In this document: piece after piece, positions 16,035 through 21,521 of the stretch
Numbering within the stretch: position 1 is the first letter of the stretch
How the letters are laid out: each line of letters opens with the position of its first letter
Source: Flavobacterium sediminis
Lineage (GTDB): Bacteria; Bacteroidota; Bacteroidia; Flavobacteriales; Flavobacteriaceae
NCBI RefSeq assembly: GCF_003148385.1
Contig: NZ_CP029463.1
Coordinates: 868,001 to 932,000, forward strand
DNA: 64,000 nucleotides
Reading direction: 5' to 3'
Program-made: the position numbers and the translations under genes
Notes under the pieces: generated by a model
What the model was told of the DNA's origin: nothing
The model's input: the letters and a program-made list of their open reading frames with translations, nothing else
Database searches by the model: none

Positions 16035-16080
16035 AAAAATAACAAATGTGTGAATAAGAACATAATTTAGCTAAAAAAGT
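16035..16080 (+). repeat. 46-bp direct repeat, left copy
   Basis: It shares 40 of 46 positions, without gaps, with 18534-18579 in the same orientation; the common start is AAAAATAACAAATGTGT. The two copies flank the four-gene SDP-like operon. It could be an insertion-site duplication or a shared regulatory sequence. Confidence 0.7.
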
Positions 16081-16152
16081 AATTACAAACAGTCATTCAT
16101 CTGCTTTTTTCTCTGTTTACATTATACAAACGTACTTTTATAATACAGCCAA

Positions 16153-16557
16153 TCATTCAATTATTCTGCTTCTTTCTTCTTTTGTTAATAATTGACAAGC
16201 TTCTGTTTTTCCGAACCAGAAATATCTTTTATCTGCAATAAGTGAATAAATTCCGTTTCTCAAAGAAACCGGAATCTTTTTAAAAATTTTTGCAACTGTT
16301 TTATAATATTTAATATCGATCAACAATTCCAAAATAGCATCTGAATGCGTATAAACAGTTTCATTTTTTAGATAAAATATCGTTGTCAATTCTTCAACAT
16401 TATACTGAACCTTATACTTATCCAATAACTCTTTTGCACTTTGAGATTGTAATGAAATAAATTTTGTCTGCTTGTTTTTATCTTTTTCTAAAACAAACAG
16501 AACCAAATAATTACACATAGCACATATTCCGTCAAAAAAAACAACTTTCTGGTTCAT
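16153..16557 (-). CDS. DCC-family thiol-disulfide oxidoreductase
   Basis: A 134-residue protein of the DCC/DUF393 family, thioredoxin-like, with the signature VVFFDGICAMCNYLV at the N-terminus; Cys-x-x-Cys is the predicted redox pair. No signal peptide, so it is probably cytoplasmic or at the inner membrane face. Its ATG overlaps the stop of the HTTM gene (ATGA), so it is the last gene of a four-gene operon. In that context it may form or rearrange the disulfide between the two Cys of the precursor encoded first in the operon (inference). Confidence 0.8.
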   Translation of the reverse strand: MNQKVVFFDGICAMCNYLVLFVLEKDKNKQTKFISLQSQSAKELLDKYKVQYNVEELTTIFYLKNETVYTHSDAILELLIDIKYYKTVAKIFKKIPVSLRNGIYSLIADKRYFWFGKTEACQLLTKEERSRIIE

Positions 16558-17345
16558 AATAATTGTCCTACTGTTAAATATCCATGTACAATTCCATGAA
16601 GGATCAACACTCCCGGATAAGTCAAAGGAAATGTCAATAAAAAATCATTTAATCCCATTAATACTGCCGTACTGAAATGAAAAAGAAAGATACAACACAA
16701 TGAGATATAGATGAATTCGGGTTGAGGAATAAAGAAACATACCGGAACCAAAATCATTGTTATGATTGCGGAATGAGATGCTAACTTCTCTATTACAGGA
16801 TGCTTCTTTAAAAATAAAGAAATCCCGGGTATTCCATAAGAATACGTACTCAAAATTCCTGAAAGTAGATTTCCTTTTCTCCAACTGGGTGACAAAAGTT
16901 TTGCTATTCCGGAAGTAGCATACGCAATTAAAACCTGAGCTCCGACAAAGACAACTGACAAAAGCATTCCTTTCTCATTTTCTACCAGAAAACAAAGAGA
17001 AAAAGAAAGTAAGGCCAGTAATCTCATTTGGTCTGCCCCGTCTTTACTGACCGTCCTTACTTTATACAAATAAAAGACTCCGCCTGTAATCAGCAAAAAA
17101 GTTATTTTAAAATATTTTATTTCCCCGAAAGAGAAAAACAAAAAAGCAAGCAAAACTAAACTTAGTAAAACATAGTTAAAAACCCTCCATCTTGAATATT
17201 TATTCTTAACTTTTATTGAAGGATAAACAAAATCCAGATAGAGTGCGGGAATACTTGAAAGTTCTAAAGTTGAAACAAAAGTTGAAACTAAAAGGATATA
17301 CACACTAATAGTATATGCTGTATTTACGGTTAAATTTATCTCCAT
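16554..17345 (-). CDS. HTTM-domain membrane protein (SdpB / gamma-carboxylase-like)
   Basis: A 263-residue protein with about seven membrane spans. The segment YATSGIAKLLSPSWRKGN, followed by the next span, is the hallmark of the HTTM fold shared by vitamin K-dependent carboxylases and SdpB. Its length fits a bare HTTM domain without the lumenal part of the carboxylases. In Bacillus, SdpB is needed to mature the SDP toxin. Here the gene lies between an SdpA-like gene (5 nt upstream) and the DCC gene (4-nt overlap). The role in maturing the precursor at 17862-18209 is inferred from family and order. Confidence 0.75.
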   Translation of the reverse strand: MEINLTVNTAYTISVYILLVSTFVSTLELSSIPALYLDFVYPSIKVKNKYSRWRVFNYVLLSLVLLAFLFFSFGEIKYFKITFLLITGGVFYLYKVRTVSKDGADQMRLLALLSFSLCFLVENEKGMLLSVVFVGAQVLIAYATSGIAKLLSPSWRKGNLLSGILSTYSYGIPGISLFLKKHPVIEKLASHSAIITMILVPVCFFIPQPEFIYISLCCIFLFHFSTAVLMGLNDFLLTFPLTYPGVLILHGIVHGYLTVGQLL

Positions 17346-17350
17346 TGTTC

Positions 17351-17860
17351 TTAAATTATTTGATTATAAGATGCAAACATCACATGATCGATTGCAATAT
17401 CTTTTATTCCCTTTGAAGAAACGATACTGAATCTCACAATACTTTCATTTTTATAATTTCTTTCCTTTTTAAGAAAATTAGATATGAGCGTTAAAATATT
17501 TAGGTAAAAAACAGAGAACTGTATCCCTTTTTTATTCTCCAAAACGTTAAATTCATCGATCAGAAAATGGCACGAATCTATTAGTCCTTTGTTATAATAT
17601 TTAAAAGGGTTCCAAAATATTTTAACAATTTTAAACTCCATATAAATAGGTACCTCTTCCCATTCTTCTTGTTCCGAATTTATCCTTTTAAAAACTATTC
17701 TGTAATCATTCAATAACGGATTAGGTGCAAAAAAGCAATAATTAGGCAGCAACCCGAATTTATCCCATTTTTGTATCGCCTTTTGTAGCCCCTTTATTTG
17801 ATAAAGAATGCTTACCACAGTAAATATGGCAAGCATTGCTACTAGTAATAAGAATAACAT
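17351..17860 (-). CDS. SdpA-like membrane-anchored protein
   Basis: A 169-residue protein with one N-terminal membrane anchor (MLFLLLVAMLAIFTVVSIL) and a soluble remainder. The motif LPNYCFFAPNPLLNDYRIVF follows the anchor. It resembles in position and character the W-x-FF-x-x-x-P-R segment of SdpA, the partner of SdpB. I call it SdpA-like on size, topology, motif and neighbours, not on a search. It starts 1 nt after the precursor stop and ends 5 nt before the HTTM gene. Confidence 0.55.
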   Translation of the reverse strand: MLFLLLVAMLAIFTVVSILYQIKGLQKAIQKWDKFGLLPNYCFFAPNPLLNDYRIVFKRINSEQEEWEEVPIYMEFKIVKIFWNPFKYYNKGLIDSCHFLIDEFNVLENKKGIQFSVFYLNILTLISNFLKKERNYKNESIVRFSIVSSKGIKDIAIDHVMFASYNQII

Positions 17861-17861
17861 A

Positions 17862-18209
17862 TTACGAATTCTTTTGTCTTATTGCTTTCAATTGCTCCAA
17901 TGTTAACACTGATTCCAATCCGCTTTCTTTAATAGAATTTAATGCACTTTTTTCAGTGATCTCAGCTCCGGCAGCTGCTACTGCAGGGCACACCTGCGCT
18001 GCTACTTGTACAGCCGGACAAGCAGCCGTTGCTACATCGGAAACAGCATGAGCTGCGCTTGTTGCAACATTTGTTGCTGCCGACGCTACATCAGTCACGG
18101 CATGCACTACCGATGAAATAAATGATTTAAAACTTGGCGCTCCTTCTTCCTCTAGTTGCGCAATCATTAGGTCAATTGCTGCTAACTCTGATTTTGATAA
18201 TTTTGACAT
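17862..18209 (-). CDS. Ala-rich, two-Cys precursor of an SDP-like peptide (predicted)
   Basis: A 115-residue protein in three parts. Residues 1-30 are a charged helical leader (MSKLSKSELAAIDLMIAQLE then EEGAPSF). Residues 33-83 are an Ala/Val-rich, weakly amphipathic stretch with internal repeats (HAVTDVASAA, HAVSDVATAA) and a duplicated CPAV placing its only two Cys at 64 and 74. Residues 84-115 are a charged tail (LTLEQLKAIRQKNS). The hydrophobic core with a close Cys pair, first position in the operon and SdpA/SdpB-like partners fit an antimicrobial peptide precursor. There is no classical signal peptide. A structural or phasin-like protein is the main alternative. Confidence 0.65.
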   Translation of the reverse strand: MSKLSKSELAAIDLMIAQLEEEGAPSFKSFISSVVHAVTDVASAATNVATSAAHAVSDVATAACPAVQVAAQVCPAVAAAGAEITEKSALNSIKESGLESVLTLEQLKAIRQKNS

Positions 18210-18533
18210 AATTTTTTACTTTGTTCCCTACTCTTATGGCTTTTCAGGTTTTGCCCCGTTTAAGATGGTTTCTGGCTCCATTTTTATTAATTGTAATATT
18301 ACAGTCATAAAACTAGCACTTCATAAGAATCCAAATAATAGTACAAATACCTGATTTTAAAAATCAGTCAAAACTACGGGGTAACAATTTCAATATTAGA
18401 ACGATAACATCCAAAAGCAATAAAAGAATCGAAATAAAGTTGAACCGGAGTATTTTCCATTATTGAAACAAAAAATACTGAAGAATATCATTGTACTCTT
18501 TAAAAGTATCCTTACTACTTAGAGATATTTAAA

Positions 18534-18579
18534 AAAAATAACAAATGTGTTAATAAGAACATCGTTTAGTTGAAAAAAT
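18534..18579 (+). repeat. 46-bp direct repeat, right copy
   Basis: Partner of 16035-16080, 40/46 identical, same orientation. Differences are six scattered substitutions, with no gaps. Confidence 0.7.
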
Positions 18580-18625
18580 CACAAAAAATCAATTTTTAAA
18601 AACTAAATATTACAAGATTAATAAT

Positions 18626-18678: not shown

Positions 18679-21521
18679 ATGAGAACAGATGCATTTGCTT
18701 TGAGACACTTAGGTCCGATAGAAGCTGACCTAAATCAAATGTTGGACACGATTGGTGTAGATTCGTTAGACCAATTGATCTACGAAACTTTACCTGATGA
18801 CATTAAACTAAAATCTCCTCTTCAATTAGACCCGGCGATGACTGAATATGAGTATGCAAATCATATTTTAGAATTAGGTCAAAAAATAAAGTTTTCAAAT
18901 CTTATATCGGTTTAGGATACCACCCTACAATTGTACCGGCTCCTATCCAAAGAAACATTTTCGAAAACCCGGGATGGTACACTGCTTATACACCTTATCA
19001 GGCAGAAATTGCACAAGGCCGTTTAGAAGCTCTTTTGAATTTCCAGACTACGATCATTGAACTTACCGGAATGGAGATTGCTAATGCGTCACTTCTAGAC
19101 GAAGGTACAGCCGCTGCTGAAGCAATGGCCTTGCTTTTTGACGTAAGAACACGCGATCAAAAGAAAAATAATGTAAATAAATTCTTCGTTTCTGAAGAAA
19201 TTTTACCACAGACACTTTCCGTTCTTCAAACACGTTCCACTCCTATCGGTATTGAAATAGTTGTAGGAGATCATGAAACTTTTGAATTTACGAATGATTT
19301 CTTTGGCGCTGTTTTACAATATCCCGGAAAATTCGGTCAGGTTTATGACTATGCAGGTTTTATTGCCAAAGCCAAAGAAAAAGATATAAAAGTTGCTGTT
19401 GCTGCTGATATCTTATCCCTTGTAAAATTAACTCCTCCGGGAGAAATAGGTGCTGATGTCGTTGTAGGAACTACGCAACGTTTCGGTATCCCAATGGGCT
19501 ACGGCGGTCCTCATGCCGCTTACTTTGCAACTAAAGAAGAATACAAACGTTCTATGCCGGGACGTATCATCGGGGTTACTGTTGACGCTAACGGAAACCG
19601 AGCACTACGTATGGCTTTGCAAACCCGTGAGCAACATATTAAACGTGAAAAAGCGACATCTAATATCTGTACTGCTCAGGTATTATTAGCGGTTATGGCA
19701 GGAATGTATGCTGTGTATCACGGACCTAAAGGATTACAATATATTGCAAACAAAACGCATGCTGCCGCAGTTACTACCGCAGAAGCTTTGAATCAATTAG
19801 GTGTTTACCAGACAAATACGGCTTATTTTGACACCATTGTTGTAAAAGCAGATGCTAACAAAGTAAAAACCGTTGCGGAAGACAAAGAAGTAAACTTCTA
19901 CTACATTGACAACGAAACTATCGCTATAGCTTTCAATGAAACAACTTCTTTAAAAGACATTAATGAGATTATTTTCATTTTTGCAGAAGCCTTAGGCAAA
20001 GAAATATTCACTGTTAACGAATTAGCTTCTACCGAACATATCCCGAGCCAATTGATGAGAACCTCAACATTCTTACCACACGAGGTATTCAACAACCATC
20101 ACTCGGAAACGCAATTAATGCGTTATATTAAAAAATTAGAACGCAAAGATTTATCTTTAAATCACTCAATGATTTCATTAGGTTCATGTACCATGAAGTT
20201 AAATGCGGCCTCTGAAATGTTACCACTTTCTATGCCAAACTGGAACAGCATTCACCCTTTTGCTCCGGCTGAGCAAACAGAAGGGTATCAAATTATGCTG
20301 AAAAAACTGGAGGATCAACTGAATGTAATTACCGGTTTCAAGGGAACTACTTTACAACCGAACTCTGGTGCTCAAGGTGAATATGCGGGTCTAATGACGA
20401 TTAGAGCGTATCATCAGTCAAGAGGTGACCATCACAGAACAGTTTGTTTAATTCCTGCTTCTGCTCACGGAACCAATCCTGCTTCTGCTGCTATGGCCGG
20501 AATGAATATCATAGTAACCAAAACAACTCCTGAAGGAAATATTGACGTAGAAGATTTAAGAGAAAAAGCTATTGCAAACAAAGATAAACTAGCGTGTTTG
20601 ATGGTTACTTATCCATCTACACATGGTGTTTACGAAAGTGCTATCCGACAAATCACTAACATCATTCACGAAAATGGAGGTCTTGTTTATATGGACGGTG
20701 CGAATATGAATGCTCAGGTTGGATTAACCAATCCGGCTACAATTGGCGCTGATGTTTGCCACTTAAACTTACACAAAACGTTTGCTATCCCTCACGGTGG
20801 TGGTGGACCTGGTGTTGGTCCGATTTGTGTTAACGAAAAATTAGTCGATTTCTTACCTACCAATCCTATTATAAAAGTTGGCGGAGAACATGCTATTTCT
20901 GCCATTTCTGCTGCACCTTACGGATCTGCTTTAGTTTGTCTGATCTCTTATGGATATATTAGCATGATGGGGGCTGAAGGTTTAACAGAAGCCACAAAAT
21001 ATGCTATCTTAAACGCTAACTATATGAAAGCGCGTTTAACGGAACACTATCCTGTTCTATATTCCGGAGAAATGGGAAGAGCTGCTCACGAGATGATCTT
21101 AGATTGTAGAGCGTTCAAAGAAAAAGGAATTGAAGTGACAGATATCGCTAAACGTTTAATGGATTACGGATTCCATGCTCCGACTGTTTCATTCCCGGTT
21201 GCCGGAACTTTAATGGTTGAACCGACGGAATCAGAAGATTTAGGGGAATTAGATCGTTTTTGCGATGCAATGATCTCTATTCGTAAAGAAATTGAAACAG
21301 CGAGTAAAGAAGATACTAATAATGTATTGAAAAATGCACCTCACACTTTAGCTATGCTAACAGCTAACGACTGGAACATGCCTTATACAAGAGAGCAAGC
21401 TGCTTACCCGTTAGACTATATTGCTGAAAACAAATTCTGGCCAACGGTAAGACGTGTTGATGATGCTTATGGCGACAGAAACTTAATTTGTTCTTGTGCT
21501 CCGATTGAAGCATATATGTAA
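18679..21521 (+). pseudogene. gcvP: Glycine dehydrogenase (P protein), frameshifted as read
   Basis: PLP-dependent P protein of the glycine cleavage system, which decarboxylates glycine onto the H-protein lipoamide. The N-terminus (MRTDAFALRHLGP) runs in one frame to a stop at 18915; the rest continues in another frame. Adding one A to the run of six at 18881-18886 restores [20 protein letters not shown] and a protein of about 947 residues, the usual single-chain size. The PLP lysine is in [18 protein letters not shown]. All downstream motifs are intact, so a sequencing error is more likely than a true pseudogene. A slippery-site frameshift is a remote alternative. Confidence 0.93.

Follow-up and report, generated by a model that had tools for sequence, protein, structure and literature searches.

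The closest described systems are sdpABC of Bacillus subtilis and its paralogue yitPOM, which make secreted toxins from SdpC and YitM and come with dedicated immunity proteins, SdpI and YitQ; in passages of the same source, yitPOM is controlled by DegS–DegU (PMC6818787). Weak sdpABC homologues are also mentioned on an island in Brevibacterium aurantiacum (passages of PMC5719810). Here we describe a four-gene cassette of Flavobacterium sediminis, found in a stretch of 64,000 nucleotides (contig NZ_CP029463.1, positions 868,001 to 932,000; hereafter the window, with coordinates counted from its first letter) and encoding a putative precursor peptide, an SdpA-like protein, an SdpB-like membrane protein and a DCC1-like thiol oxidoreductase. 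The cassette belongs to a coherent unannotated family that resembles SDP systems yet fails strict membership in them. We put at roughly 0.6 the probability of the reading as a whole: a horizontally acquired SDP-like peptide-maturation cassette on a separate branch, whose precursor core would be released as a membrane-active peptide against competitors.

The likeness to SdpABC and YitPOM lies in the combination of a small precursor with an SdpA-type and a polytopic SdpB-type protein, in a related SdpB profile, and in a sporadic occurrence on inserted DNA. The differences are a precursor without a Sec-like start and with a C-terminal tail motif, the presence of a DCC gene, and the lack of any recognised SdpI- or YitQ-like gene in the cassette; compared with SdpABC, moreover, the SdpA-like protein is not significantly similar and the SdpB-like protein stays below the NCBIfam cut-off. 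The Brevibacterium genes share an actinobacterial host with part of the family (L091, from another Brevibacterium species, belongs to it; L and G numbers denote loci and genomes in our collection), but the tail motif, the DCC gene and Bacteroidota members are unnamed in those passages of PMC5719810. The initial annotation of this DNA had proposed a related but distinct SDP-like system and knew of no description of it; the trio of precursor, SdpA-like and SdpB-like proteins with DCC does form a family of its own, and we found no description of it in the literature searched.

A four-gene cassette inserted between core genes

Open reading frame (ORF) calling reproduced the gene order, coordinates and spacing first proposed. 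All four ORFs are on the minus strand: the precursor (17862..18209, 115 aa), the SdpA-like protein (17351..17860, 169 aa), the SdpB-like protein (16554..17345, 263 aa) and the DCC protein (16153..16557, 134 aa) follow each other with gaps of 1 nt and 5 nt and then a 4-nt overlap. The order goes beyond chance, because the same order is found, with sequences that have diverged, in G325 and in loci of Pedobacter and Mucilaginibacter, where homologues of the precursor occupy the same position. The precursor, SdpA-like and SdpB-like proteins have no assignment in Pfam, NCBIfam, PADLOC or PHROGs; the sole family assignment in the cassette is that of the DCC protein in Pfam (PF04134, E 5e-22), which is unassigned in NCBIfam. 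An origin from a defence system or a phage was rejected: PADLOC gave no match, and PHROGs gave weak matches to the DCC protein only (best E 0.0024).

The cassette lies on an insert of ∼2.44 kb (16090..18533) between two copies of a 55-nt direct repeat on the plus strand (left copy 16035..16089; right copy 18534..18588, 82% identical to the left), and its flanks are a UbiA-like gene (its PF01040 match, E 1e-7, falls slightly short of the cut-off) and a gene read as gcvP. These two genes are direct neighbours, ∼140–245 bp apart, in 29 out of 29 relatives fetched (the UbiA-like gene was found in 39 of 41 genomes, the window's own included, and loci were obtained for 30, the window among them), and the window copy is an insertion between core genes. 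By eye, the repeat resembles a lone intergenic segment of several relatives. The GC content of the operon is 32.5%, against 35.2% for the window. A Bacteroidota-type promoter pattern has three matches in the window, where 6.3 are expected, and none upstream of the operon. Beyond the right repeat copy, the frame read as gcvP is broken (18679–19035): a 78-aa ORF ends at 18915 and the long remainder is in another ORF. Relatives align to both parts of this glycine dehydrogenase frame, and either an error of sequencing or damage to the gene could explain the break.

The SdpA/SdpB-like pair and its precursor

The SdpB-like protein has many strongly hydrophobic stretches, and five of its residues (Y142, K149, W155, G158 and H223) are invariant in an alignment of 13 SdpB/HTTM-type proteins. 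Its kinship to the SdpB superfamily, taken in the wider sense, is significant in comparisons between profiles: the family (51-row alignment) matches canonical SdpB in hhalign at E 1.5e-17 (probability 98.9%), and a set of eight SdpB/HTTM-like proteins at E 1.3e-18 (three of the eight were scanned with Pfam and one is above the HTTM cut-off). Formal NCBIfam membership is another matter, as the window protein has no match to SdpB (TIGR04033, curated cut-off 178.4 bits) at E 10; a relative (L011) scores 26.2 bits, below the cut-off, and the canonical proteins of L021 and L028 pass it. Nor does it match Pfam HTTM (PF05090, cut-off 27.7 bits) even at E 10; of its relatives, that of L006 scores 16.5 bits and that of L045 has no match, and in the genome of the window a search for HTTM found only another gene. 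The initial label of HTTM or SdpB-like protein thus stands through profiles, and not as a Pfam HTTM or an NCBIfam SdpB assignment.

In a tree of 68 proteins (11 of them labelled HTTM by us; Pfam was run on five and two pass), the window protein groups with those of L036 and L012 (100/100) and six canonical SdpB proteins form their own clade (100/99). It stands on a branch of its own and not inside another HTTM clade, although the deepest split is weak (64/41).

The SdpA-like protein has a single strongly hydrophobic N-terminal helix followed by the motif LPNYCFFAPNP. Over 26 columns, the family matches the small proteins that accompany other HTTM-like genes (E 1.4e-4). Other Bacteroidota SdpB/HTTM-type genes (L014–L018 and L020–L029) likewise have beside them a small protein whose motif is like FFAP or FFTK, in some cases in variant form, which suggests that an SdpA-type partner is general for the SdpB/HTTM membrane family.

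A scan of genome contigs with the single protein found no relatives. With a profile of six proteins there were matches in 20 out of 395 Bacteroidota genomes (E 0.001), strong ones (E below 1e-20) being confined to the own genome, G550, G325 and G554; the weaker ones are, as we read them, mostly other SdpB/HTTM-type genes beside a small FFAP-/FFTK-type protein. Ten aligned proteins retrieved 56 loci from Bacteroidota, Actinomycetota, Planctomycetota, Armatimonadota and Chlamydiota (partly non-independent, e.g. L049/L054 and L032/L054, the latter two being the same place). An SdpA-like ORF accompanies the SdpB-like gene, at most 2.9 kb away, in 55 of these loci (before it in 33, after it in 22); L074 is the one missed by our own hidden Markov models on mechanically called ORFs. 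Among plasmids, tblastn of the 263-aa protein (E limit 0.01) gave 16 records, all actinobacterial, and that of the 169-aa protein (E limit 1) gave 14, all within those 16 (two with E values as high as 0.2 and 0.8); the precursor gave none. In each of the five plasmid loci that we opened, the SdpB-like gene has in its vicinity an SdpA-like protein marked by a W-x-FFAPxP-type motif; four loci have small Ala-rich peptides, and three have an annotated alpha/beta hydrolase (in a fourth, L008, an unannotated ORF is our reading). In the genus of the window, a single-protein search of 299 genomes returned only the window and one weak match with internal stops. The six-protein profile added weak matches in six other genomes of the genus (E 2e-5 to 2e-8), and these we read as other SdpB/HTTM-type genes.

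Among 201 genomes of the family of G550, an SdpA-like gene (E 1e-5) is found in 10, and SdpB-like matches with E below 1e-40 are found in the same 10, always adjacent (SdpB-like matches in another six genomes are weaker, E 9e-11 to 1e-13). The precursor profile (E 0.001) matches eight of the 10, beside the SdpA-like gene, and none of the other genomes; the match in G843 is weak (E 9e-4), with two precursor-like ORFs there, and G746 makes a ninth with a 258-aa precursor-like protein ending in the same kind of tail motif. In 345 genomes of the phylum (E 0.01) there were matches in six: three strong, all at SdpA/SdpB-like loci, and three weak (E 0.003–0.006), inside long ORFs. Pairing of the SdpA-like and SdpB-like genes is near-obligate and the precursor is confined to such loci in the genomes searched, which disposes of a concern raised initially, that the precursor family might occur mostly away from these genes.

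We divide the 115-aa precursor (boundaries are our choice) into a leader (residues ∼1–24), an Ala/Val-rich core (∼25–98) and a tail (∼99–115) that ends in TLEQLKAIRQKNS. Its N-terminus, MSKLSKSELAAIDLMIAQLEEE, is hydrophilic (mean hydropathy of the first 26 residues is 0.05) and, judged from hydropathy, does not qualify as the Sec signal peptide of the SDP toxin system, as the initial annotation had said. Both ends are conserved around a more variable core: over 20 aligned precursors, mostly near relatives from Sphingobacteriaceae, mean pairwise identity is 0.59 for the leader, 0.42 for the core and 0.67 for the tail (for the window precursor against the other rows, 0.33–0.58, 0.20–0.33 and 0.24–0.47, respectively). 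A loose tail pattern ([STA]xxx[LMF][ILVMKE]xxR near the ORF end) matches 52 out of 1156 ORFs on the same strand and 16 out of 1200 on the opposite strand, and it ends ORFs directly before the SdpA-like or SdpB-like gene in seven actinobacterial loci (L040, L053, L060, L062, L063, L079 and L080); it misses L048 and L050, whose tails start with P, and is unseen in most Streptomyces-type loci. Two or three precursors are present in loci L036, L087, L088 and L090 and in genome G843. Some precursor-like proteins are extended at the N-terminus by ∼150–200 aa, followed by a hydrophobic or Ala-rich stretch and then by the tail motif (L071 5294–6148, L086 5213–6133, L163 1639–2415 and L005 2328–3104).

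A mildly hydrophobic, low-complexity core, together with the three weak profile matches inside long ORFs, would also suit a stable Ala-rich helical protein that is acted on by an unrelated membrane enzyme and is no precursor at all. We consider this very improbable: the core varies while both ends are kept, the gene occurs in tandem copies, and the precursor is confined to SdpA/SdpB-like loci. The 115-aa protein also belongs to no Pfam or NCBIfam family; on this ground, homology to a structural protein, which the initial annotation had named as a way in which it could be wrong, was ruled out.

The DCC protein and the chemistry of the pair

The fourth gene was correctly read as a DCC thiol oxidoreductase: it scores 79.7 bits against PF04134 (cut-off 27.8) and has a CxxC at residues 12–15, within FDGICAMC. 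A search of PDB sequences with it gave a single match at E 1.1. A DCC motif is located at most 50 nt from the SdpB-like stop in 17 of the 56 loci, ∼1 kb beyond the SdpB-like gene in four Dokdonia loci, and 3.3–4.3 kb beyond it in five actinobacterial loci, where scores with our own model are weak (E 2e-7 to 3e-3).

The two cysteines of the window precursor (Cys64 and Cys74, both in the core) had been taken as a defining feature, with an implied disulfide role for the DCC protein; comparison supports neither idea. Precursors are Cys-free in 18 out of 20 aligned sequences and in 16 of 18 loci where such a precursor is combined with a DCC gene directly downstream (the 18 being the window, G325 and 16 public loci), so it is unlikely that DCC serves to form a disulfide there, and we rejected this as the enzyme's function. 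The possibility that it joins two precursor cysteines, which we rate as slight, draws on the two-Cys precursors with a directly downstream DCC gene in the window and in L055, on the actinobacterial loci L062 and L063, gene clusters with a DCC match whose precursors have two or more cysteines, and on the Cys-bearing precursors of G746 (two or more) and G843 (two or more in one of its copies). Other distant candidates have one cysteine (L075, and four Dokdonia precursors, where it is lone and in the tail) or two (L072). The DCC domain starts at residue 6, which leaves no room for a signal peptide and points to a reducing cytosolic site, though residues 5–23 are themselves hydrophobic. In agreement with our view of the DCC protein, a 2013 paper on SdpA and SdpB reportedly found that the disulfide of SDP forms without SdpAB.

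DCC-like sequences also occur outside the cassette family: in L028 (923–2876) a canonical SdpA–SdpB pair is followed by a DCC-like gene, and in L019 (1066–2277) an HTTM-like protein is seemingly fused to a DCC-like domain. Because of these two arrangements the DCC link looks wider than the family.

In vitamin K-dependent gamma-carboxylase, K218 starts the reaction, and K218 and H160 are described as essential (passages of PMC9146348). An HTTM protein encoded elsewhere in the genome matches chains of this carboxylase (E 9e-24), and in a remote alignment through this protein (carboxylase numbering set by our offset) the positions of K218 and H287 correspond to K149 and H223 of the window SdpB-like protein, but that of H160 corresponds to A104, i.e. 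one of the two essential residues is kept. The window protein further differs from the carboxylase and from HTTM proteins in having no further domain and no Pfam HTTM match, and gamma-carboxylase is absent from the best 50 of 347 Foldseek matches to its model. Because the K218 and H287 positions are kept, we offer, as a long shot, that the SdpB-like protein might be a membrane enzyme that modifies or cuts the precursor by means of membrane quinol and a carboxylase-type catalytic-base lysine, with the adjacent DCC protein supplying reducing equivalents. If true, ribosomal peptide maturation would include a quinol-driven class, of which SDP would be one branch.

Proposed function and neighbouring genes

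Probably, the four genes form a peptide-maturation cassette; that its product is antimicrobial is an even bet. In the scheme that follows, we infer how the precursor is recognised, cut or modified and exported, that the product kills, and what DCC does. The cassette would have been acquired horizontally and would function like Bacillus SDP on a separate branch. A ribosomally made precursor, whose leader is helical and whose C-terminus forms a short follower, would be recognised by the SdpA-like/SdpB-like membrane pair; the pair would cut or modify it, and the Ala/Val-rich core may then be freed as a membrane-active peptide that is used against competitors. DCC would assist the pair as a redox accessory and would not make a disulfide in the precursor. 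Consistent with this scheme are the pairing in 55 of 56 loci, the conservation of both precursor ends, the tandem precursors, the SdpB profile match (E 1.5e-17), the YitPOM precedent and a single gene run in Amycolatopsis (L062) that comprises precursor, SdpB-like protein, ABC exporter, hydrolase, SdpA-like protein, LuxR-type regulator and DCC (exporter, hydrolase and regulator by Pfam). By appearance, an Actinopolyspora locus (L079) resembles it.

Several results weigh against it. The SdpA-like family is not significantly similar to the canonical SdpA profile (hhalign E 0.09, probability 0.6%; E 0.005 and 7.5% with fewer rows), the alignment covering only the region of the FFAPxP and FFTKxP motifs, and it has no match to TIGR04034 at the cut-off or below; of the SdpA-like anchored protein first proposed, the hydrophobic N-terminal stretch and an SdpA-like role are kept and formal SdpA membership is not. 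The SdpB-like profile fits HTTM-like proteins as well as SdpB. Its AlphaFold2 model is confidently all-helical (pLDDT 92.8, pTM 0.90, 45 sequences), but a structural comparison of it found no solved fold: none of the 347 Foldseek matches in the PDB reaches E 0.001 or better, and a PDB sequence search with family profiles gave unrelated matches only (E above 1). The precursor profile, built from the first three precursors, matches ORFs in 23 of the 56 loci, some weakly (L086, E 6e-3), and the core of the window precursor is, as said, only mildly hydrophobic. No precursor was recognised in G835, which has an intact pair (SdpB-like protein of 271 aa), or in G554, where L034 (5986–8587) has two tandem SdpA-like/SdpB-like pairs. 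The window cassette has no transporter gene, and no immunity gene was recognised in it within its conserved neighbours, the search being of the cassette and not of the rest of the genome. As a separate observation, the divergent pair of G835 (L164, 2333–3642) is near a PqqD-sized protein and other biosynthesis-like genes.

Among 65 loci searched for neighbouring genes (duplicates included, and some matches far from the operon), there are matches to alpha/beta hydrolases in 23, histidine kinases in 17 and response regulators in 20. In 13 Sphingobacteriaceae-type loci (L037–L039, L041–L045, L047, L048 and L050–L052; Pfam was run on the L045 pair), the kinase and response-regulator matches are just upstream of the precursor. 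This arrangement, along with the lack of a recognised immunity gene, would fit a product that is a signalling peptide and not a toxin, sensed by the kinase and LuxR-type regulator beside many copies. We think this improbable, if the least so of the alternatives: the G325 locus (L033) has no kinase or regulator match, the window cassette (outside that search) is bounded by the UbiA-like gene and gcvP, and toxin operons are also under two-component systems, e.g. yitPOM under DegS–DegU (passages of PMC6818787). Other neighbours are more local. In four Dokdonia loci the gene between the SdpB-like gene and DCC is a PF13354 beta-lactamase-fold protein (by Pfam in L088, which the other three match), and in L052 (7930–10630) three tandem lipase-like genes come right after DCC, the first being Lipase_3 by Pfam, with matches to it in four Mucilaginibacter loci.

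To our knowledge, the mechanism by which SdpA and SdpB mature SDP is unsolved. The family offers diverged and compact versions of such a system in five phyla; in them each end of the precursor has a candidate recognition element, and a redox partner recurs. The question of SDP maturation thereby becomes testable in easily grown soil bacteria, and the family draws attention to a group of candidate antimicrobial peptides that have gone unannotated.
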